Source of the DNA: Phycisphaerae bacterium
GTDB taxonomy: Bacteria; Planctomycetota; Phycisphaerae; Sedimentisphaerales; SM23-30
Assembly (NCBI GenBank): GCA_016342495.1
Contig: JAEIOG010000004.1
Location: 1-64,000, forward strand
Length of the DNA stretch: 64,000 nt
Direction: 5' to 3'
This document shows, one piece after another, positions 11,164 to 22,174 of this stretch. The number at the start of each line of letters is the position of its first letter. The first letter of the stretch is position 1. Position numbers and translations under genes: made by a program. The notes beneath the pieces are model-generated. The model was not told where the DNA came from. It did no database searches and saw only the letters and a program-made list of their open reading frames with translations.

Positions 11164-12495
11164 TTGGCAGACGTTTTGACAGACATTTGGGATAAGGTAT
11201 TACGCCATTTTTATAAATATAATAGCAGTTGTTGGCGTAACTGGTTTGAGCAAATCGAGCCGGTTGCACTTGATAATGGTGTTTTGAGAGTCAGTGTGCC
11301 AGAACGCACCTGGCAGCAATATCTCCGTAAAACCTGCAATGATGGACTGAAACAGGCCGCCCAGAGTATCACTGGTCATCTTATCAGTCTGGAATATATT
11401 TATTCGGATAATCAGGATATTGACAAAGAAAAAGACTTTGAATATGAAGAAACTGTTGATGAAAGTCTGATGTTTTTCAATCCAGACTATACTTTTGGCA
11501 ATTTTGTCGTGGGCCCATGCAATCGTCTGGCCCATGCTGCCTGCACTGCGGTTTCAGAAGCTCCAGGTCAGGCATATAACCCCTTGTTTATCCATGGCTC
11601 TGTTGGATTGGGCAAAACTCATCTGATGCAGTCGGCCTGTCAGGAACTTCTAAAAAAGAATCCTGGCGCTACAGCAATGTATATGAGTTGCGAAACCTTC
11701 GTCAATGACTTTATTCAGGCGGTTGAAGATGGTAAATTATATGATTTTCGTTATAAGTACCGCCATGTCGATGTGCTGGTTATCGATGATATTCAGTTTT
11801 TAAGCGAAAGAGAAAGATCACAAGAAGAGTTCTTCCATACCTTCAATAGTCTTTATCAGTCTCGCAAGCAGATTATTATTTCATCAGATAGTCCGCCATC
11901 GGAAATCCCGCATCTGGAGAATCGACTGATAAGTCGGTTTAATCAAGGTTTGGTAACCCGAATTGACAAACCTTGCTATGAAACCCGCCTTGCGATTTTG
12001 CGTAAGAAGGCATTTATGCGTGGTATCAATCCACCAGACGAGGCGGTGGAGTTTATTGCCAGAAAAATCGAAAATAATACTCGCGAGCTAGAAGGGGCAT
12101 TGACCAAAGTACATGGGATGGCTATGCTGGAAGATGGTCAGATTACCCTGGAACTGGTAAGGCAGGCCCTTGGCGAAGAACCTACTCCCGCCCATCGCCA
12201 GATTTCAATTTCCCAGATTATCGATGTCGTAACTGAGCATTTTAATATCAAACTTTCGGATTTGCAAGGCAAACGTCGCAGTCGCAGCATCGCCTTTCCC
12301 CGGCAAATTTGCATGTATCTGGCCCGTGACCTGACCCGCCACAGCTTAGAAGAAATCGGCGGCTATTTCGGTGGCCGCGACCATACTACCATCCTGCATG
12401 GCTATCGCAATATCGATAAGCTCTGCGATAACGATGAAAGCACCCGCCAGTTAGTTGAAGTTCTGATGGCTAATCTGACCCAGAAACAAAACTGA
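11164..12495 (+). CDS. dnaA: Chromosomal replication initiator protein DnaA
   Basis: A 443-residue DnaA. Domain I is about residues 1-75, a short acidic domain II follows, and domain III is an AAA+ ATPase with Walker A GSVGLGKT at 145-152 and Walker B VLVIDD at 204-209. Domain IV contains the DNA-binding signature GGYFGGRDHTTILHGYRNI near the C-terminus. It binds DnaA boxes and opens the origin. The start codon is TTG; AGAAGGA lies about 7 bases upstream, which supports it. dnaN, recF and gyrB do not follow, unlike the classic dnaA-dnaN order; the next gene is an unrelated radical SAM protein. A near-consensus promoter and a perfect DnaA box upstream suggest autoregulation. Confidence 0.95.
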   Translation: MADVLTDIWDKVLRHFYKYNSSCWRNWFEQIEPVALDNGVLRVSVPERTWQQYLRKTCNDGLKQAAQSITGHLISLEYIYSDNQDIDKEKDFEYEETVDESLMFFNPDYTFGNFVVGPCNRLAHAACTAVSEAPGQAYNPLFIHGSVGLGKTHLMQSACQELLKKNPGATAMYMSCETFVNDFIQAVEDGKLYDFRYKYRHVDVLVIDDIQFLSERERSQEEFFHTFNSLYQSRKQIIISSDSPPSEIPHLENRLISRFNQGLVTRIDKPCYETRLAILRKKAFMRGINPPDEAVEFIARKIENNTRELEGALTKVHGMAMLEDGQITLELVRQALGEEPTPAHRQISISQIIDVVTEHFNIKLSDLQGKRRSRSIAFPRQICMYLARDLTRHSLEEIGGYFGGRDHTTILHGYRNIDKLCDNDESTRQLVEVLMANLTQKQN

Positions 12496-12759
12496 AATCC
12501 GTTAATCAAGCTGGTGTTTTTAAGGCATCTAAAAATTCAAAAGCAATTACTAGAGATGCCCTATAGCCAACAACCGGTCGGTGGGGTTATCTTGGTCTGC
12601 AATTTCAAGACTATTACCTGGCATGGATGATTTGCCTTTTTCTGAATGAAAGCATACAATAGTATTGAGGCAATTCATGTAACCCTAGTTTGATAATCCT
12701 TTTTATTGATATACACCTAAAGCTTAATTTCCAGCCGAAAAGGACAGGGGAAATGCTTT

Positions 12760-14148
12760 ATGAGGCTATATCTTATTAATCCATCCAACCCTCTTGTTAG
12801 TATTGTAAATGTCAAAGAGAGTCGCTGGAATCGTTATCGGGTTTGGAAACCGCTGGGGCTTATGGTTTTAGCTGGTTTAACGCCGCCATCGTGGGATATT
12901 TCTATTATAGATGAGAATCTTGGCTTGCCAGAGTATTTATCTTTGCCTCGACCTGATCTGGTCGGTATCACTGCTTTTACATCTCAGGCTAATCGTGCCT
13001 ATGAAATTGCCAGGGTATTTCATGATATGGGTGTTCCGGTTATTATGGGTGGTATCCATGCAACTATGTGTCAAAGCGAAGTTGCCGAATATGCCGATGC
13101 AATTGTAACCGGTGAAGCCGATGGTATCTGGCCTGAGGTTCTGACCGATTTTGAACAGGGCAAACTCAAAGCTCATTATGATGGCGCTTATGCCGAAATA
13201 GATAAAGTTCCTTTTGCCCGCCATGATCTGTTAGCAGGTAAATACGCATTAGGAGCTATTCAGAGTACCCGAGGTTGTCCGTTGAACTGCAGTTTTTGCA
13301 GTGTTACCGCCTTTAACGGTGCCCGATATCGCCAAAGACCTATAGATGATGTTGTTGCTGAATTCAAACTGATATGCGAAAAAAGGGTATTGGTTGTAGA
13401 TGATAATCTCATTGGAACAAAACCCGAACATATAGAACGTGCCAAAGATATGTTTAGGGCGATGATAAAAGCCGACCTTAAAAAAGAATGGGTAGCTCAG
13501 GCTACCATTAATTTTGCCGATAATGAAGAACTGATGTCTCTAGCGGCACAAGCAGGATGTCGAGGGGTGTTTATTGGCTTTGAATCACCTTCAGCAGAAG
13601 GGCTTTATGAGATTGGCAAAAAATTTAATATTATTAAAAATCGTAATTTCCGTGAATCTGTGCGTCGTTTGCAAAAACATAATATTCTGGTGGTAGGCTC
13701 GTTTATTATTGGTTTGGATATTGATGATGCCGGAATTGGCAAGCGTATTGCCACTGTAGCTAGGCAATATGGTTTGGACAATCTCAACGTTTTGTTTTTG
13801 ACACCATTGCCAGGTACCAGATTATGGGATCAGATGGTGTCGCAGGAGCGACTTGCCCTGAGTAACTTTCCACAAGATTGGAAATATTACACACTGACAT
13901 TCCCGGTAGCTAAGTACAAACATTTGTCGCTGGACGATATTATTGAAGAAATGACTGGTTGTGACCGGGGTTTTTATTCAATACCACGTATTTTGCAAAG
14001 AACATTGATAAACCTGCTACATCGTCGTCAGCCATTGATCAGCTTCATTGGCAATCTGTCTTATCGGCGGAATCTAAAATTAAATGATAAAGCCTATGCT
14101 AGCCTGAAAGTATACCTGTCCCAGAGTAAAACTGCTCATGCTGATTAA
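12760..14148 (+). CDS. B12-binding domain radical SAM protein
   Basis: A 462-residue protein of the cobalamin-dependent radical SAM class. Residues about 1-130 form a Rossmann-like B12-binding domain with PDLVGITAFTSQANRAYEIA and VIMGGIHATMC; as is common in this class a strict DxHxxG motif is not evident. The radical SAM cluster CxxxCxxC is Cys173, Cys177 and Cys180 in RGCPLNCSFC. The C-terminal 70 residues are hydrophobic-basic. Members methylate or rearrange unactivated carbons in lipids, hopanoids or secondary metabolites; the substrate here is unknown. The gene stands alone between dnaA and a small membrane protein. The ATG start has GGGGAAA about 8 bases upstream. Confidence 0.85.
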   Translation: MRLYLINPSNPLVSIVNVKESRWNRYRVWKPLGLMVLAGLTPPSWDISIIDENLGLPEYLSLPRPDLVGITAFTSQANRAYEIARVFHDMGVPVIMGGIHATMCQSEVAEYADAIVTGEADGIWPEVLTDFEQGKLKAHYDGAYAEIDKVPFARHDLLAGKYALGAIQSTRGCPLNCSFCSVTAFNGARYRQRPIDDVVAEFKLICEKRVLVVDDNLIGTKPEHIERAKDMFRAMIKADLKKEWVAQATINFADNEELMSLAAQAGCRGVFIGFESPSAEGLYEIGKKFNIIKNRNFRESVRRLQKHNILVVGSFIIGLDIDDAGIGKRIATVARQYGLDNLNVLFLTPLPGTRLWDQMVSQERLALSNFPQDWKYYTLTFPVAKYKHLSLDDIIEEMTGCDRGFYSIPRILQRTLINLLHRRQPLISFIGNLSYRRNLKLNDKAYASLKVYLSQSKTAHAD

Positions 14149-14181
14149 AAACCGCAGTAATATTGCTGTTTTTAAGGTTTT

Positions 14182-14838
14182 TTGCAGGTTTTAGCCGAAA
14201 AATATGGTATGGCTAAGATAACCATCACAAAACCAACAAAGCCCCCAGTGCTGAGGAAATCAACTGACGAAAATAAATTATTGAGTCAGATGCGTTATCC
14301 CTTACCATCTCAAAGAGCCAAACAGCAAGCTCAATTAGCAGCAAAAAAACGTAGTGAAAAGAAAATATATCGCGAAAAAATTAAAAAAAATATAGTAATG
14401 GCTTTTCTGGCATTATTAGTCGCAACGGTATTTTTCATTTTTATGTTTTCTGGCAATATTTTTAAGGCAAAGCCATGGCAGATGTTTGCCGCGGCTGAGC
14501 CTACCAGAGAAATTGAACTTTGTAAGCAAATGGGATGTGATAATACCAAAGGTTTTGATAAGCATGTCAGGTTCATTGTGTCAGTTTATGCTCTGGCCAA
14601 AGAAGGAAAGCAAGACCAGCTCGACAAACTTGTCAAAAGTAATGACTTGACAGTAAAAGATGCTGTTCGGGAAGTAATTTCTTCTGCCAGTTTTGCCCAG
14701 ATACAAGATCCACGTAAAAACGAGATTGCCGAAATGATTTCTGCCAGAATCAAAGCAATTACCGGCCAGGATATGACCGAAAAGATACTTTTTCCTGAAT
14801 GGGAGCATCGTTTACCTAAAGATATTCTAGTGAAATAG
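14182..14838 (+). CDS. Small single-pass membrane protein, function unknown
   Basis: I do not recognise this protein. It has a Lys/Arg-rich, Gln-rich N-terminal part (to about residue 68), one clear membrane segment VMAFLALLVATVFFIFMFSG (about 73-92) and a soluble C-terminal domain of about 125 residues rich in Lys, Asp and Ala that is predicted to lie outside the cytoplasm by the positive-inside rule. The start is uncertain: TTG at 14182 has AAGG five bases upstream, while ATG at 14209 gives MAKITITKP and no good site. It lies 33 bases after the radical SAM gene, so co-transcription is possible, though a weak near-palindrome sits in the gap. Confidence 0.6.
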   Translation: MQVLAEKYGMAKITITKPTKPPVLRKSTDENKLLSQMRYPLPSQRAKQQAQLAAKKRSEKKIYREKIKKNIVMAFLALLVATVFFIFMFSGNIFKAKPWQMFAAAEPTREIELCKQMGCDNTKGFDKHVRFIVSVYALAKEGKQDQLDKLVKSNDLTVKDAVREVISSASFAQIQDPRKNEIAEMISARIKAITGQDMTEKILFPEWEHRLPKDILVK

Positions 14839-14960
14839 ACTTTGGTTTTTTAGTGAAAATGGCTTAGTATTGATTATGCCGAAACTCGGGCGGTATTATC
14901 GGTCCTGCCAATAAGAGTCGGCAAACTTTAAAATAATATGCAAAAAACTAAAGATAATCT

Positions 14961-14988
14961 TTGTTAATAGCCGAAAAATCATTATAAT
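14961..14988 (+). promoter_or_regulatory. Candidate sigma70-type promoter
   Basis: TTGTTA at 14961-14966, 16-base spacer, perfect TATAAT at 14983-14988, about 95 bases before the start of the pseudo-amidase gene. Confidence 0.45.
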
Positions 14989-15083
14989 CCTTACTGTTGA
15001 CACAGGCATAATGGAAGTCTGGTCGCTATTGAAGTGGGTCAGTAGTTTGGAAGTCTTTTTTTAATTTTTTACCCTTAGCATGG

Positions 15084-15623
15084 ATGGATATTATGGCTGG
15101 TCATGGAAGATCATATACAGTATTAGCTTTGCTATTAGTCTCGATGGGATTTGGGACAATAGTTTTAATGAAACTTGAAGGCAAACCTTTTAAGCCTATG
15201 CCTTACAGCTTGTCCAGTCAGACTCGACAGACTCAAAATGTCGGAAGCATACTAAGTACTAATCAGGATATAAAAGTTGAAGACTGGAGTCAGATAGAAG
15301 TTGTTTTGGCTTCATCGGATAAATATCAGGGTCAGGAAGATGCTCTTCGCAATAATCTTAGCAACCAATATCATTTTGTTGTCAGCAATGGCTTTTTTGG
15401 TGCTGATGGCCAGATATTCCGCACTCGTTGCTGGTCTAATCAGAGTCTATGTAAATCAAACTATAGTTTTGATGATACCCGCAAGACTATCCGTATTTGT
15501 GTATTAAGTAGTAGTGATTGTCCCAAAGGTACAGCCAATCAATATCGAAGACTAGAAGAATTAGTGAGTACTTTGACAAATTATTATGATATAGAGAAAG
15601 ACAATGTCATACCAGCAGTGTAG
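15084..15623 (+). CDS. Membrane-anchored amidase_2/PGRP-like protein lacking metal ligands
   Basis: A 179-residue protein with an N-terminal membrane anchor or uncleaved signal (residues about 10-28). Residues 65-179 follow the plan of the zinc-dependent N-acetylmuramoyl-L-alanine amidase / peptidoglycan-recognition fold: WSQIEVVLASS at the usual WxxIVIHHS strand, then YHFVVSNGFFGADGQIFRTRCW, then TIRICVLSS and a final helix LEELVSTLTNYYDIEKDNVI. The histidines that normally bind zinc (HH after the first strand and the H of the later AH motif) are absent, so it is probably not an active hydrolase and may bind peptidoglycan. The family call is by pattern only and could be wrong. ATG at 15093, preceded by GGATGGAT, is an alternative start. 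Terminator follows. Confidence 0.5.
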   Translation: MDIMAGHGRSYTVLALLLVSMGFGTIVLMKLEGKPFKPMPYSLSSQTRQTQNVGSILSTNQDIKVEDWSQIEVVLASSDKYQGQEDALRNNLSNQYHFVVSNGFFGADGQIFRTRCWSNQSLCKSNYSFDDTRKTIRICVLSSSDCPKGTANQYRRLEELVSTLTNYYDIEKDNVIPAV

Positions 15624-15669
15624 AAAGATATTGTCTGGGTTGACATCTGAGTTTTGATATAAAATTATA

Positions 15670-15698
15670 GGGCGACAATAAAAATGTCGCCTTTTTTT
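15670..15698 (+). terminator. Strong terminator after the pseudo-amidase gene
   Basis: Stem GGCGACA / TGTCGCC (15671-15691) with a 7-base A-rich loop, then seven T residues. Confidence 0.9.
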
Positions 15699-16277
15699 GT
15701 GGGTTTTAGTATTAATGAAAACGTTATTGTGTCTAAGTTGTTGATTAGTATGTGTTTAAGTTTTTTGATATTGGGTTTTTATTTGGTTTACTGCATGAGA
15801 TAGCGTTATAATAAAAAACTAAAAACCCTTGTAAAAGCTTTGATTTTATTATATTATTATGATGAAAAGTAGAAACTTTGCTGTTTGATTGACCATGATT
15901 GGCGTTAAACGAGGTCGACAGAGATATCTGTCTGTTATGTACAGAGAGTTTGAAAATTATTATTACTTCCGATGGCAATTATAAAATTTCCGCAATTATC
16001 CTGCCTGAACTCTCCTGAAATTACAGAAATGATGTTTTTTGTCAATTCTCTTGGTTTTTCATGCTATTTTGTGATCAATTAACACCTGCAAAGGCTAAAT
16101 GGTATTTGTTTGTCTATAATTATGGTAATAATGTCATTCTTTGAACGTTATACCAGACTGATATTACAAATATTGTAATCCACAAAATGGAATATTGGAA
16201 AAATTATTGAAGTATGCTTTGAAAATAACCAATCAGGTTAAAGCATAATTTGAGCAAACAGGAGAATTCCAGTAATA
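15699..16277. other. A+T-rich intergenic region
   Basis: About 580 bases with no supportable gene. The only structure I see is a small perfect stem GACAGA/TCTGTC around GATA at 15917-15932, without a T run. A weak promoter-like pair (TTGAAA at 16219, CATAAT at 16244, 19-base spacer) precedes the kinase gene. Confidence 0.5.
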
Positions 16278-17150
16278 GTGCTTGATGTAAGTGGTAACAA
16301 ATTAACAGATACGCCTCCAATGTTTGCTGGCTGGGAACCAGTTAAAAAACTTGGCACCGGTGCAGCCAGCACTATCTATCAGGTTCGCAATGTCGAAACT
16401 GGTCAGATGCGTGCTTTGAAGTATGTGATGCGTAAGGATGGCGAAGACAAAAGAATGATCGATCAGGTCGAGGCCGAATTTGATGTAGCCAGCAAGATAG
16501 ATCATCCTTATATTCGCAAGGTGTATGAAATCAAACGTATTCGCAAGATGTTAGCGTGTCGCGAAGTGATAATGCTGATGGAATTTTGTCCTGGCATATC
16601 ACTGGAGCAGGGTCCAAGCCATTCTTTGCTGGATCTGCTTTTGGTGTTCCGCATGGTGGCAAATGCGATACATGGAATGCATCAGGCAGGTTTTATCCAT
16701 TGCGACTTAAAACCGAACAATATAATTATTGCTGAAAATGGTGGCATAAAAGTCATTGATCTGGGTCAAAGTTGTGCTGTTGGTACGGTGAAAACCCGCA
16801 TTCAGGGCACACCTGATTATATAGCACCAGAGCAGGTTAAACGCCGTCCACTTAGTCGCCAGACTGATATATTTAATCTGGGCGCTACGATTTACTGGGC
16901 TTTAACTGGTAAGAATATTCCAACGATGATCCCCAAGCACCAGACGGCAGGATCAATTACCGTTGAAAAAAATGTTCCGCCACCACCAAGCCCCAACGAA
17001 TTAAAACCTAAGATTCCTGTCGGTGTTTCAAATTTGGTAATGGAATGTATCCGCAAAAAACCTATTGACAGACCCAAAGATATGCCGGAAGTTATAGCTC
17101 GACTTGATTTGTTAATACACATGATTGCCAGCGGAAAATCACTGAAATAG
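16278..17150 (+). CDS. Hanks-type Ser/Thr protein kinase
   Basis: A 290-residue cytosolic kinase consisting of little more than the catalytic domain. Seen motifs: glycine loop GTGAAS (26-31), the ATP-binding lysine K48 in ALKYV, catalytic loop HCDLKPNN (141-148, Asp143), the magnesium loop as DLG (161-163, in place of DFG), and GTPDYIAPEQ. There is no transmembrane helix or PASTA/sensor domain, so its input must come from a partner. The 9-base gap to the phosphatase gene indicates one operon; the FHA protein at 18736 is a plausible reader of its phosphothreonine products. The start is uncertain: GTG at 16278 has AGGAG about 14 bases upstream; the first internal ATG is codon 15. Confidence 0.9.
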   Translation: MLDVSGNKLTDTPPMFAGWEPVKKLGTGAASTIYQVRNVETGQMRALKYVMRKDGEDKRMIDQVEAEFDVASKIDHPYIRKVYEIKRIRKMLACREVIMLMEFCPGISLEQGPSHSLLDLLLVFRMVANAIHGMHQAGFIHCDLKPNNIIIAENGGIKVIDLGQSCAVGTVKTRIQGTPDYIAPEQVKRRPLSRQTDIFNLGATIYWALTGKNIPTMIPKHQTAGSITVEKNVPPPPSPNELKPKIPVGVSNLVMECIRKKPIDRPKDMPEVIARLDLLIHMIASGKSLK

Positions 17151-17159
17151 GTTTTGTCC

Positions 17160-18011
17160 ATGAACAGTCAGGAAATAATAAATATTTTTCAGCAGGCATC
17201 CAGAGCTAATGTTGAAAACATCAATCGCTTTGGCAATGTTATTAAATTAAATGGCCCTGGTAAGGTGGTTGTAAGCGGAGATGTGCATGGCCATGATCGC
17301 AATTTTGAGAGACTTGTTTGCACAGCGGCGATGGATTCGGATGTTAATAATCATTTAATAGCCCATGAATTAATTCATTGTAATGAACCAGTCAGTGCGA
17401 CAATGTGCCATTCGTATAAATTATTGCTGGAAGCGGCCATGCTTAAAATCCGCTATCCCAATCAATTCCATTTTTTAATGGGCAATCATGCGATGGCCCA
17501 GATTACTCAGGATGAGGTCCTGAAAAACGGCCAGCCCATGGTTCGGTCGTTTAATGCTGGAATTGAGGATGTTTTTGGTTCTGACGCCAAAGCTGTTTAC
17601 GAAGCAATGCAGGTTTTTTTGATGACACTGCCGATTGCCTGTCGTACCAATAATAAAATATGGATGAGTCATTCACTACCAGCGATGCGAAATTTAGCTG
17701 CTTTTGACAGCAGTATTTTCGATGAACCGATTACCTTGGATGTTTTAAAAAATAATCGTTCATTGCGAGCATTAATCTGGGACCGGCGACATTGTTCCGA
17801 TTGTGTTGAGCAATTACAACAAATGTGGGATATCGAGGCTTTTGTAGTGGGCCATCAGCCTCAGGTCCATGGATGCTGCAAGTTGCAAAAAGGTTTGATT
17901 GTTATTGCCAGCGACCATAATCATGGCTGTTTCTTGGAATTTCAGTTAGATTTTGACTACAAGGCAGATGATTTATTTGCTTTGGTCAAGCCTTTAGCCT
18001 CGATTGCATGA
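17160..18011 (+). CDS. Metallophosphoesterase, PPP-type phosphatase-like
   Basis: A 283-residue calcineurin-like phosphoesterase. Metal-binding motifs GDVHGHDRN (about 40-48) and MGNHA (about 107-111) are clear, and two later histidines occur in VVGHQPQVHG and SDHNHG. The usual GDxVDRG motif of PPP phosphatases is replaced by a region reading HELIHCNEP, so metal binding or substrate choice may differ. Lying 9 bases after a Ser/Thr kinase gene, it most likely reverses that kinase. ATG at 17160 is chosen because AGG lies 8 bases upstream; a TTG two codons earlier is also open. Confidence 0.82.
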   Translation: MNSQEIINIFQQASRANVENINRFGNVIKLNGPGKVVVSGDVHGHDRNFERLVCTAAMDSDVNNHLIAHELIHCNEPVSATMCHSYKLLLEAAMLKIRYPNQFHFLMGNHAMAQITQDEVLKNGQPMVRSFNAGIEDVFGSDAKAVYEAMQVFLMTLPIACRTNNKIWMSHSLPAMRNLAAFDSSIFDEPITLDVLKNNRSLRALIWDRRHCSDCVEQLQQMWDIEAFVVGHQPQVHGCCKLQKGLIVIASDHNHGCFLEFQLDFDYKADDLFALVKPLASIA

Positions 18012-18146
18012 TGATATTCAAAGTGGAATTCATTAGTTTTGTGGCTGAGAAAGTTTAATTTCATTAGTGAAATTTGTGATAAAATCTGTTAAAATACTTC
18101 GACTTTAACCGATTTAATTGATTTTTTTGTTTAAGAGGAAAATAAG

Positions 18147-18455
18147 ATGCGTAAAACAGCACTGATTTTAGCAATGATAATAATGGCAGCTATATTTGCT
18201 TCATGCAAAAAAAACGAGCCAAAAGCTGGCCCTATCAGCTATGATCCAGCGATAGACGGGATAAACGTTCGTATAGCTACCCCGATGAGCCCTAAAACTG
18301 TAGAGCTTATAAATAGAAGAGGTGGTGCGGTAAAGCCTTCGGATATGATAACAGATGTTAATGAAGTTCCGGCAGCTCCTGTGGCAATACCAGAAGATAC
18401 TGGTATGGGTGATGGCGGTATGGGCATGGGTAATCCCGGAGATCCTAATTCGTAA
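18147..18455 (+). CDS. Small lipoprotein, function unknown
   Basis: A 102-residue protein with a lipoprotein signal: hydrophobic segment TALILAMIIMAAIFASC with lipobox FASC and acylated Cys20. The mature part is short, Pro/Ala/Gly-rich and ends in a Gly-Met-rich tail (MGDGGMGMGNPGDP), suggesting a disordered envelope protein. AGAGGAA upstream supports the ATG start. It sits between the kinase-phosphatase pair and the FHA gene and is closed by a terminator; whether it is part of that signalling set is not known. Confidence 0.65.
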   Translation: MRKTALILAMIIMAAIFASCKKNEPKAGPISYDPAIDGINVRIATPMSPKTVELINRRGGAVKPSDMITDVNEVPAAPVAIPEDTGMGDGGMGMGNPGDPNS

Positions 18456-18499
18456 AAAATGATACAAGTTATTGATTTGTAGATACTTATAGTATTTTA

Positions 18500-18546
18500 T
18501 ACAGGTGTTTTTGTCATATTATATGCTAAATGCACCTGTTTTTTTA
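18500..18546 (+). terminator. Terminator after the small lipoprotein gene
   Basis: Arms ACAGGTG (18501-18507) and CACCTGT (18533-18539) with a 25-base loop, followed by a T run. The loop is long, so the stem is only moderately convincing. Confidence 0.55.
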
Positions 18547-18621
18547 TGTTTAAATTTGGGGTTTATAGGGTAAGTTTTATATAGAAATGCTAAAAAAGCG
18601 GAAAAATATTAAAATTAGTTC

Positions 18622-18650
18622 TTGAAATGGTCATGGTTATTGAGTAGTAT
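18622..18650 (+). promoter_or_regulatory. Candidate promoter of the FHA gene
   Basis: TTGAAA at 18622-18627, a 17-base spacer and TAGTAT at 18645-18650, 86 bases before the start codon. Confidence 0.4.
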
Positions 18651-18735
18651 CAGGTTGTATACCTATCAAGGGTATGACTTTTCAAAATATCCTTTCTAAT
18701 TTTATTGGGGACGTTAGCGACCGAAGGGAGGCGTT

Positions 18736-19044
18736 ATGGCGTCATTAGTTATTGTCAACGCGGCAGGGCGACGGAAACAGATACCTATCGGAGTTGGGGC
18801 TATGGTTATGGGGCGGCACGATGATTGTGACATCCACGTGCCTGAAATACATGTTTCGCGCAGACATTGCACGATTACGATTAACGATGAGTTGCTGCAA
18901 GTTCAGGACTTATCCAGTCGTAATGGCACTTTTGTCAATAATCAGAAGGTTGAAAAAGCAGCCTTAGCTGATGGCGATAAACTGCGTTTGGGCCATGTGG
19001 TTTTCTGGGTCGAAGATGAGCAAGTAGTTAATTTGGATGTATAA
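18736..19044 (+). CDS. FHA-domain phosphopeptide-binding protein
   Basis: A 102-residue protein that is a single forkhead-associated domain. The phosphothreonine-binding positions are visible: GRHDDCDI (26-33), SRRHC (41-45) and SSRNGTFVNN (60-69). It has no membrane segment or other domain. Such stand-alone FHA proteins relay signals by binding substrates phosphorylated by Ser/Thr kinases; the kinase at 16278 is the obvious candidate partner. GGGAGG about 6 bases upstream is an excellent ribosome-binding site. Confidence 0.9.
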   Translation: MASLVIVNAAGRRKQIPIGVGAMVMGRHDDCDIHVPEIHVSRRHCTITINDELLQVQDLSSRNGTFVNNQKVEKAALADGDKLRLGHVVFWVEDEQVVNLDV

Positions 19045-19351
19045 TCTATCGATCTGATAGTTAAGTGCTCTTAAAGCTTATTGGCCTTGTCAGGATTAGG
19101 GAAATAAGTAGATCGACAATGGTTTTGACAGAATCGTTGGAGTGAAAGGGAGATGTCTTGCTGTATTTTCATATTTCAATGTTTGCTCAAATTACAGGGC
19201 TACCTACTGATAAATAATCGTCGAATTTAAGTTTGTGCGGCAATGTAATATTTTCTACCTTTTTGGGGTGATATCAAAATGTCTGGTCTGGTAATGTCTA
19301 TGGTATGTGCAAACTAATACTCCTTCAACGAGCCAGCATCGCAAGCATGTT
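19045..19351. other. Convergent intergenic region
   Basis: About 300 bases between the FHA gene and the oppositely oriented discoidin gene. I see no gene and no convincing terminator for either strand. Confidence 0.5.
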
Positions 19352-22174
19352 TTAATTATACTTGAACCAGACAGTCGCTGTTGTAGCGACGTCACTAATT
19401 GCACGAACCCAATATGCACTGAACCCTTCAGGGAATTTATGCGAAATTGCTACCCCCGGTTTAACCGTAAAGGTTCTATATGGCACCCACAAACCTGTGC
19501 CATCTATATCGATTTCGATTGTTATCACAGCTGATTGACTGGCCTCAATAGTGACAGATTTATTATCATAACCTGTCATCAAATATGGGTCGGATGGCTT
19601 GTTGGCTTTGACAACACTATTTTTCCAGGGCCCTCCCTGGCCACGCGGTTTGCCAAGTTTCCATAAATCATCAATCACACCTGCCCAGACCGCAATTTTA
19701 CCATTATCACTTGATATTACCCGGTCATTGACCTGGCCATTTAAACCACTGATAAACATTAAACCAAAATGAGAAGCATAATCATTAATATTAAGATTAT
19801 GGGTTGCAATCGGCCTTATCTTGGCAAAACCCTGGGCATTACGTGCTGGCAATTCATAAAATGTCCCATGCAGATTAAATAAGTCACGTTCTGTAGCAAC
19901 TTCACGGCATATCCGTGCTGGATATGTATCTGAGCTAATTGCAATTTTTTCATTCAGCAGACCAATTTCATAAACTCTTACATAACCTTTATCATTAGAA
20001 ACAAAACGAACATGCTGAGCTGAAATACTTTCACTTAGATTAATCACTACCGTTGCACTATTATTATCTCTTATTGTGGCCCCATCTAAAGTTTGCCAGC
20101 TATCATTGTTTTTTATCTGAATGTCAAAATTTTTGACCGCGTATGCACTATCCATATTCCAGCCGGTTACCACCGCTATACTCTGGAATGTTCTAATTTG
20201 GCCAAGGTCCATCTCCAGCCACTTCGGCCCCGCATTTTCGGCTATCCATCGGGATTCATTACCGAGCATACCATCAACAGTATTGCTGCCATCATGATTC
20301 TGAAATGTAGAACTGGCTGTAATGGTTGCTGATTTAGCCAGACTTCTAGCCAGATAGCTTTCGATAGTTTCAGCACTGGCGATATCCTGATATATTTCAT
20401 TTTTAGGTAAGCGATAAGTCTTGCCATCTTCATTTACAACAACCGATGCTTCATCAACATAAATATCAGAAGCAGGCTGACCGACACCATCAAATAAACT
20501 TGTAGAATCTCCACTTGCCGTTAATTCTAATTTCTCATTAACCTCAAAGCTCCCATCTTCACCATACAGACTCAATACTTTTTGATTACTTCTCAGCATT
20601 GCCCTGGTTTGGTTTTCTTGCCCGGCATTTGATATCGGTGCAAATATTGGATCATTTGCTGTTGTTCGATTATCTTTATTACGATAATTAAAATGAACCG
20701 AAACATCTTTGGCATCAATATCTGTTTTTACCCTGAGCCAACAGCCTTTGTCTGACTGGGGGAAGATATGAATCAAGTTGTTTTTTACCTTAAATTCCGC
20801 AAAATCTTTCCAATTGTTGTTACCATCTTCATCTATCTCAATGGTAAATGTAACGGGATTTTGGGTCTTATGATTAATAACCATCATGCGATAATCATAA
20901 CCGGCAAACAAGTATGGATCACTAGGCACATTAGCTTTGACCTCATCTTTGAGCCAGATACTTCCACGGCCAATTGCCGGGCCAAGTTTATCAAGACGCC
21001 CCGGGTCGACAAACCATAAATTTGAATTAGATTGAACAGGTGCGCCTTTGGTTGACTTAAATGGGCGATGATTCAAAAATTCTTTCTGTGCTGAATCATC
21101 ACAGCCCAGCACCAGATTATCTCCCCATTTCGCAAAATCACCAATGACCTTCAAATAATTACTGCGAGGCAAGATGCCTGCAGAGTTGTGTAATGAAAAA
21201 GTCCTGGGAAATTTCCAGAATGTTCCGTGCATGGTAGCTAATAGTTTATCTTCGCCAATGTCACGAATACGAGGCCATTCGGTATTCCAGCCATGAGCCC
21301 CGTCATAGCTATGGCTGGCCTTGGGCAATCTATAGCTATGCCATTGCCCATCTTCCAGCAGCATTAATATTACCGAACGATAATCCCAGCCCATCGCCCA
21401 TATTGGATCGGTTGCTGGTTTTTGGTTGCCATAAATTCCGCCAGGGCCTGTTACCTCAGTAAATTGATTTCTCCGAATGAGCTTCCAGTCACCTTCACCT
21501 GACCATGAAGCCAATGCACCTGAATCAATGGTTGGATCAATAGCCGCTGAGCTACCTTGCTGCCCATTGTTTGCATAAATAAGTTCGCCCTGACCAGAGT
21601 ACAAACCTTTGCCATGATATCCCGGCAATTGTGAAGATATTCCATTTTGAACAGGCTTACTAAGATTACCATCTTTGATATGTTCGACAAACTCTAATGT
21701 ATTTACATCAACACTATAAAGGCCTTCTTCCATTGTCGCGATATAAACCTTGTTGGCAGGGTCGGTTAAATGCCGAGCGGTACCGGTATGGCGGCCGGGC
21801 ATTTTTTCAGGCGATATTACCCGGACTTGCCCATCTGCATCGATAAAATACGGGCCAATATTAAGTTGATTTGATTCGGTGTGAATCATGCGATTGGCTG
21901 GCGTGCCACCCACACTTTCCGGACGGATAACCTGAGTCAATGTTTCCGAAATCTCATATAGCTTATCACTTGAGCCAAAGGGTTTGTGTGGGCCATAAGT
22001 AATCACCCACAATTTACCTGCAAAGGGCACCACCGCACCGGTGCCACATTCGCCTTCATTATTATACATCGTCAAATGAGGATAAACACCACTGATGCTA
22101 CGATGTTGAGCAAGAGAAGTGTTTCCCATAAATGCCATTATTAATGCAATAGCCATAATTCTAAAGAATTTCAT
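19352..22174 (-). CDS. Secreted discoidin-domain protein with duplicated C-terminal module
   Basis: A 940-residue exported protein with a signal peptide ending SLA (about residue 22). The N-terminal 400 residues have repeated Trp/Gly/Tyr-rich strands reminiscent of a beta-propeller. A module of about 90 residues beginning with SDPYLFAGYDYR (about 405-495) is repeated near the end as SDPYLMTGYDNK (about 848-940), both with an IEIDxDGxxxW core. A discoidin (F5/8 type C) domain lies between them at about 612-737. No catalytic residues are recognised. It is the last gene of a minus-strand operon, 18 bases after a sulfatase, so it probably binds the sulfated glycan attacked by its neighbours. GGGGA upstream supports the start. 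Confidence 0.75.
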   Translation of the reverse strand: MKFFRIMAIALIMAFMGNTSLAQHRSISGVYPHLTMYNNEGECGTGAVVPFAGKLWVITYGPHKPFGSSDKLYEISETLTQVIRPESVGGTPANRMIHTESNQLNIGPYFIDADGQVRVISPEKMPGRHTGTARHLTDPANKVYIATMEEGLYSVDVNTLEFVEHIKDGNLSKPVQNGISSQLPGYHGKGLYSGQGELIYANNGQQGSSAAIDPTIDSGALASWSGEGDWKLIRRNQFTEVTGPGGIYGNQKPATDPIWAMGWDYRSVILMLLEDGQWHSYRLPKASHSYDGAHGWNTEWPRIRDIGEDKLLATMHGTFWKFPRTFSLHNSAGILPRSNYLKVIGDFAKWGDNLVLGCDDSAQKEFLNHRPFKSTKGAPVQSNSNLWFVDPGRLDKLGPAIGRGSIWLKDEVKANVPSDPYLFAGYDYRMMVINHKTQNPVTFTIEIDEDGNNNWKDFAEFKVKNNLIHIFPQSDKGCWLRVKTDIDAKDVSVHFNYRNKDNRTTANDPIFAPISNAGQENQTRAMLRSNQKVLSLYGEDGSFEVNEKLELTASGDSTSLFDGVGQPASDIYVDEASVVVNEDGKTYRLPKNEIYQDIASAETIESYLARSLAKSATITASSTFQNHDGSNTVDGMLGNESRWIAENAGPKWLEMDLGQIRTFQSIAVVTGWNMDSAYAVKNFDIQIKNNDSWQTLDGATIRDNNSATVVINLSESISAQHVRFVSNDKGYVRVYEIGLLNEKIAISSDTYPARICREVATERDLFNLHGTFYELPARNAQGFAKIRPIATHNLNINDYASHFGLMFISGLNGQVNDRVISSDNGKIAVWAGVIDDLWKLGKPRGQGGPWKNSVVKANKPSDPYLMTGYDNKSVTIEASQSAVITIEIDIDGTGLWVPYRTFTVKPGVAISHKFPEGFSAYWVRAISDVATTATVWFKYN

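Follow-up and report, generated by a model that had tools for sequence, protein, structure and literature searches.

Among the closest described systems, PhpP and Stp are PP2C-type phosphatases, and OdhI/GarA and FhaB are FHA proteins linked to Ser/Thr kinases. To our knowledge, how planctomycetes survey and regulate their cell wall is poorly understood. PASTA kinase systems are said in one paper to sense peptidoglycan fragments (PMC7286690), and non-catalytic peptidoglycan recognition proteins (PGRPs) are described in another as binding peptidoglycan to activate immune pathways (PMC8124813). The subject of the present analysis is a row of three genes in a stretch of 64,000 nucleotides from a Phycisphaerae bacterium (positions 1 to 64,000 of contig JAEIOG010000004.1, C94 in our collection), referred to as the window. 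The draft genome measures 5.4 Mb in 221 contigs, and its order, Sedimentisphaerales, belongs to the class Phycisphaerae by NCBI placement. The genes encode an Amidase_2-fold membrane protein (AMI), a Ser/Thr kinase (KIN) and a PPP-like metallophosphatase (PP). They co-occur and are linked in a fixed order; AMI carries a membrane anchor and an eroded zinc site, KIN its catalytic residues and PP the metal-site positions. With a probability of about one half, the three form one Phycisphaerae signalling module, a split peptidoglycan receptor in which a pseudo-amidase would signal to a separate kinase and PP would oppose it.

A preliminary description of the locus had listed a pseudo-amidase, a kinase, a phosphatase, a lipoprotein and an FHA protein, and all five open reading frames lie where it placed them. 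The spacing of 9 bases that it gave between kinase stop and phosphatase holds for the ATG at 17160, where PP probably starts. The features of the first three genes are:

15084..15623, + strand: AMI, 179 amino acids, N-terminal membrane anchor and degenerate Amidase_2/PGRP-fold domain
15120..15176, + strand: predicted transmembrane segment of AMI, residues 13-31; the preceding Arg9 is invariant in 17 of 17 aligned homologues
15330..15605, + strand: Amidase_2-like domain of AMI, residues 83-174, in which each of the zinc ligands His, His and Cys is replaced or absent
15669..15693, + strand: terminator-like hairpin in the gap between AMI and KIN
16278..17150, + strand: KIN, soluble Hanks-type Ser/Thr kinase, 290 amino acids, non-RD (HCD), catalytic residues present
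17154..18011, + strand: PP, PPP-like metallophosphatase with motif II GDxVDRG changed to HExxH (E72, H75)
17367..17378, + strand: ExxH motif of PP; E72 aligns with the metal-bridging Asp of PP1 and H75 with the Asp before Arg96

Linkage of the three genes across the class

The class sample comprised 248 Phycisphaerae genomes and the draw from the phylum 294; the class and the numbered families used below (f3, f15, f16 and so on) are groups of the genome collection. PP was found in 233 of the 248 class genomes, as a single match in nearly all, and KIN in 221 at E<=1e-45, the threshold beyond which it is called absent here. In the phylum draw, PP occurred in 53 of 294 genomes, 22 within the class and 31 outside it. 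The tally of the AMI profile, 241 of 248, was rejected as a count of AMI, since the same profile is unspecific and matches ordinary amidases in 238 of the 294 phylum genomes. Among the matches listed (to E 1.1e-34), all 149 genomes have one whose start, at profile position 1-19, precedes the membrane segment; most of the out-of-class rows listed start at position 42 or later. Three out-of-class matches that start in the anchor region (G488, G406 and G505, at positions 11, 11 and 17) count against a strict limit to the class.

The linkage counts rest on the matches listed, which cover PP in 150 genomes, AMI in 149 and KIN in 146, and are therefore biased toward closer matches. KIN lies directly upstream of PP in 90 of the 107 genomes with both. 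AMI lies directly upstream of KIN in 48 of 88, with one further head-to-head pair, and the reverse gene order was seen in no genome among the matches listed. Where all three are listed (62 genomes), the row AMI-KIN-PP is complete in 23, KIN-PP alone is kept in 24, AMI-KIN alone in 11 and neither in 4, leaving at least one adjacency in 58. In f16 (L185, L186, L192) and f7 (L205), two families in which KIN had no match at 1e-45, AMI stands directly upstream of PP. Each of the three pairings thus occurs, and the order is constant. A first AMI profile, seeded with three copies from the window's family, matched at 17 of 61 loci, and each of the 17 matches had KIN just after it in the same orientation. 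Of the 13 genomes in the window's own family, 12 have KIN, and 10 of these 12 have the three genes in a row; the contig ends close to KIN in the two exceptions, G520 and G235. As a control, 12 further matches of the AMI profile (ordinary amidases, in 11 of 12 genomes) had neither KIN nor PP within 1.5 kb.

Such further Amidase_2 proteins, for example L126 (G000:C70), lie away from KIN in 11 of the 12 genomes searched. The triad is intact in the 12 copies read, and a lipobox-like Cys is often present.

Fold, anchor and catalytic sites

The preliminary description had spoken of a membrane-anchored amidase-like protein lacking the zinc histidines, and the window copy of AMI indeed misses them. 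The assignment to the amidases, which it had left to profile searches, is clear in the syntenic homologues. The window sequence alone matches Pfam Amidase_2 (PF01510) at E 1.1e-4 and 23 bits, just below the 26-bit cut-off; syntenic homologues, f9 and f25 copies among them, reach 1.2e-16 (L093), 2.3e-14 (L090), 5.9e-11 (L058) and 5.7e-7 (L050), with up to 61.7 bits. In the PDB, a profile of 17 AMI sequences matches T7 lysozyme (3.8e-9), PGRP-LF (9.7e-5) and PGRP-LC (1.6e-3), as well as bacterial amidases and AmpD, and by profile match AMI belongs to the Amidase_2 superfamily. Neither AMI nor PP matched an NCBIfam model at 0.01. Of 50 AMI sequences tested, 49 have a hydrophobic segment at the N-terminus, and in the window copy the highest 19-residue Kyte-Doolittle mean is 2.22. 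The tail before the segment is short and, except for the Arg, poorly conserved, and many copies have Ser or Thr close to the segment. An AlphaFold model of the window AMI alone, with a mean pLDDT (predicted local distance difference test) of 34.7, was too low in confidence for use.

Catalytic amidases carry a zinc triad of His, His and Cys or Asp. All three are missing in the window AMI, which combines a lost zinc site with a membrane anchor, as non-catalytic PGRPs do. Among 63 module-type copies, the triad is intact in 9, reads His/His/Ser in 7, keeps both His with another third residue in 2 and has lost a His in 45. It is thus incomplete in 54, and all 10 copies of the window's family have lost a zinc His. 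These states were read from a single MAFFT alignment, in which strongly eroded copies are hard to align, and L091 (His/His/Asp) and L051 (Cys kept, the following PG lost) were counted as intact. Other amidase sequences were separated from the module type by hand; in two of three sequence sets, module-type matches start at profile position 16 or before and the others at 28 or later. The triad is intact in 31 of the 32 other rows, which include two duplicates (L193/L217 overlap); the sole non-intact row, L203, is a fragment cut off where its contig ends and is probably of the module type. The change from Cys to Ser has a precedent in Drosophila PGRP-LB, in which the C160S change leaves no zinc (PMC8124813).

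Intact triads occur in f7, f13, f14, f16 and f25 and in one f9 copy. All four copies examined from f7 (one) and f16 (three) are intact, and in a tree of PP their group lies near the outgroup rows with moderate support. On that tree, which came from a quick search and is weakly supported at 21 of its 45 inner branches, the intact and non-intact states of 43 labelled rows (not all 63 AMI copies) require at least five changes, three of them forced by starred branches. We infer a repeated loss of the zinc site from an active amidase, although the change count itself cannot separate gain from loss. That the gene has been kept while the triad went in most copies fits a possible role as a sensor, or another non-catalytic role.

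The kinase had been described as lacking a sensor, and this stands: the window KIN consists of a kinase domain only (Pfam Pkinase, 1.5e-38) and has no transmembrane segment by hydropathy, with a highest 19-residue Kyte-Doolittle mean of 1.38. Five of 66 KIN sequences pass a crude hydropathy threshold. The Hanks-type motifs (glycine-loop Gly, Lys, HxD, DxG and APE) are present in all 66 distinct sequences, and all are non-RD because the Arg of HRD is replaced by Cys (33), Ala (28) or Thr (5). The best NCBIfam match is the Stk1 PASTA kinase model, over its kinase part only, at 130.7 bits against a cut-off of 450. The window's genome has three matches to the window kinase. A published survey (PMC11032199) describes Ser/Thr kinases as absent or very scarce in Phycisphaera; several class genomes yielded dozens of first-look kinase candidates, so such scarcity is not general.

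As the preliminary description held, PP is PPP-like and lacks GDxVDRG. The window protein matches Pfam Metallophos at 3.5e-4 and 21.5 bits, at the cut-off, and the PP profile has PP1 as its top match in the PDB (1.2e-9, aligned positions 32-252 of 286), a relation that places it with the PPP phosphatases. Motif II of PP1 aligns with the PP consensus qEliHge; the PPP motifs are GDxHG, GDxVDRG and GNHE. Across 72 distinct PP sequences, a set that extends beyond the class, ExxH always stands in place of GDxVDRG. The GDxHG core and NH are kept, but the full PPP motif set is not present. None of the 72 deviates at E72, H75, N111, H112, H173, W209 or R211, and D43, H45 and H234 are conserved in all 71 with a residue there. 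The PPP metal-site pattern is therefore kept at six positions, with Glu at the bridging Asp and His at the second Asp. The position of Arg96 holds mostly small residues (Gly in 36, Ala in 10); it is Cys in the window and Arg in L061. The phosphatase of L039 (JAFGSR010000219.1, a Sedimentisphaerales metagenome-assembled genome) is 50% identical to the window PP. An AlphaFold model of PP with one homologue (mean pLDDT 42.8) was again too low for use.

A proposed split receptor and its rivals

In the preferred reading, the AMI domain would face the periplasm and bind peptidoglycan or muropeptides without cutting them, like the non-catalytic animal PGRPs. Its membrane segment or cytosolic tail would relay this state to the soluble KIN, which would phosphorylate cytosolic targets, perhaps the AMI tail itself, and PP would take the phosphate off. 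Peptidoglycan binding, signal transfer and phosphatase activity are predictions from the sequences. The hypothesis of the preliminary description, that the amidase-like protein senses peptidoglycan and signals through the kinase, is partly supported. The weakest parts of the scheme concern the window's family, where the FHA protein may recognise phosphothreonine and the lipoprotein may play a helper role in the periplasm. It is proposed more tentatively that the arrangement is a class-wide split receptor whose parts are a pseudo-amidase of PGRP fold with an anchor of its own, a soluble non-RD kinase and an ExxH PPP-related subfamily, and that it would be an independent bacterial counterpart of the animal non-catalytic PGRP receptors.

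Several points weigh against the preferred reading. The gene-neighbourhood comparison suggested by the preliminary description bore out AMI, KIN and PP as side by side across many class families, but AMI is apart from KIN in 40 of the 88 genomes with both listed, mainly genomes of f3-f5, which belong to the window's order but to other families, together with 15 of f15. In 17 of the 107 genomes with KIN and PP listed the two are not adjacent, and some of these cases may be contig ends. The terminator noted earlier between AMI and the kinase is present as a hairpin, and terminator-like sites occur in three other distinct gaps; it makes a weak objection, as a simple scan found such sites in 4 of 47 distinct gaps from AMI to the next module gene (56 rows with 9 duplicates). 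Nine of the 63 AMI copies keep a complete triad and may be active. The f22 copies retain little except the membrane segment. The C-terminal ligand region is gone in the window AMI, so the binding groove itself may be damaged. The window PP, with Cys at the Arg96 position, is a putative phosphatase, and the ligand, the interaction and the phosphorylation steps are all predicted ones.

The main rival, possible though rather unlikely, would make AMI the output: KIN and PP would control phosphorylation of its short cytosolic tail, and AMI would bind, scaffold or, in some lineages, cut peptidoglycan. The invariant Arg before the membrane segment and the nearby Ser/Thr residues would suit such control. 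The nine intact triads, which include one f7 and three f16 copies from families without a KIN match at 1e-45, also speak for this rival. However, the active site is gone in most copies with the linkage still kept, and the tail is short and little conserved beyond its Arg.

It is doubtful that KIN and PP are a general phospho-switch, with AMI a neighbour through a shared cell-wall or division context and acting in another pathway. The AMI genes unlinked to KIN in the 40 of 88 listed genomes would be expected from this, as would those of six f8/f18 genomes (one other f8 genome, G136, is linked, at L065), and separate transcription units are likely in the window. Yet AMI precedes KIN with PP elsewhere in the 11 of 62 genomes noted above. 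Regions of f23 and f24 likewise hold AMI-KIN without PP in genomes that have PP, the AMI-PP adjacency persists in f7 and f16, and the control amidases show no such linkage.

That AMI still works as a membrane amidase, with wall cutting under the control of the module, is very improbable: complete triads in f7, f13, f14, f16, f25 and one f9 copy speak for it, and the 54 incomplete ones, all 10 of the window's family included, against it. A phage-defence kinase cassette, suggested by PADLOC matches of the kinase to the PD-T4-6 and MAD6 kinases (up to 3.6e-46), was rejected, as these look like generic kinase-domain matches, presence in most genomes of the class is unlike defence genes, and AMI, PP and FHA have no PADLOC match at 1e-3.

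Search listings of the open-licence literature, and the passages found in PMC11032199, PMC5147048 and PMC8882080, gave no published description of this module. The kinase and the phosphatase, which the majority of class genomes possess, make a concrete and testable circuit with a membrane protein that descends from a wall enzyme. Should the preferred reading hold, a zinc amidase would have become a receptor in bacteria, as happened in animals, and the metal ligands of a phosphatase family would have changed. The zinc-site states across lineages offer ready-made natural variants.

Flanking genes and comparison with known systems

Two further genes follow PP in the window:

18147..18455, + strand: small lipoprotein, 102 amino acids, a partner in part of the window's family
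18736..19044, + strand: stand-alone FHA domain protein, 102 amino acids, a partner in part of the window's family

The earlier proposal of a five-gene cluster survives for the first three genes, which recur together far beyond chance; the lipoprotein and the FHA protein are loosely attached and linked in part of the window's family, where they are at best lineage-level partners. The lipoprotein, which had no Pfam match, is found in 6 of the 13 genomes of that family, the window's included. In the window, G520, G521, G524 and G527 it comes after PP; in the window, in G526 and, with a weak match (5e-3), in G008 it stands ahead of the FHA gene. The window FHA protein matches Pfam FHA at 1.8e-20 (73.5 bits, cut-off 20.7) and is an FHA domain protein by that measure. 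FHA matches occur in all 13 genomes, many of them to other FHA proteins. In the window and G235 the gene is close to PP and shares its strand; in G523 it is about 4 kb from PP on the opposite strand, and in G008 the two share a contig but are over 100 kb apart. In two f72 genomes, outside the class, PP is followed after 14 bases (L081:9347-11284) and 21 bases (L080:4926-6848) by a gene with an FHA domain, the L080 gene encoding an FHA-GAF-sigma54 activator.

Other neighbours were also recorded. Just upstream of AMI, window positions 14182-14838 encode a protein with a hydrophobic segment and a weak FliL match (6.3e-4, below cut-off). Positions 11164-14148 hold a dnaA-type gene (Bac_DnaA, 1.1e-64) and, after it, a gene of the B12-binding radical SAM type. 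An Rfam scan of 14000-20000 gave no match at the gathering threshold. In the window's order, a family of proteins of about 400 amino acids lies just downstream of PP on the same strand at nine loci (L040, L063, L066, L068-L070, L073, L074, L077), and the one scanned is a glycosyltransferase (Glyco_transf_21). Related proteins stand just upstream of KIN or PP in f8 (L042:10232-11116, L064, L071, L076:9732-10481), the two scanned combining HTH_17 and PTS_EIIA_2. Two f4 genomes have 72%-identical genes (L187:3140-5263, L120:2420-3550) on the opposite strand beside an unlinked AMI, and the product of the former is DUF4954/DUF6819.

Set beside known systems, the locus resembles the PASTA kinases (PknB/PrkC/StkP with PhpP/Stp) in its Hanks kinase, its neighbouring phosphatase and its predicted wall-facing partner. 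It differs in that the candidate sensor is a separate polypeptide of the Amidase_2/PGRP fold; PASTA kinases have a transmembrane segment and extracellular repeats, whereas the window KIN is soluble and consists of the kinase domain only, and PP, unlike PhpP/Stp, is PPP-like. With PP1, PP5 and calcineurin, PP has the GDxHG, NH, H and H positions in common, but it has [HQ]ExxH in place of GDxVDRG, and the E of GNHE is not conserved. The window FHA protein finds its best NCBIfam matches in OdhI (57.8 bits) and FhaB (56.8 bits), far below their cut-offs of 200 and 125, and differs from OdhI/GarA and FhaB in having little outside its FHA domain. AMI has its fold in common, by profile, with T7 lysozyme and the Amidase_2 amidases, from which its anchor and mostly incomplete triad set it apart. 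With animal PGRP-LC and PGRP-LF it shares the Amidase_2 fold, the membrane anchor and the loss of zinc ligands, in seven copies by the change from Cys to Ser, but it is bacterial and is linked to the gene of a Hanks kinase rather than to animal immune adaptors.

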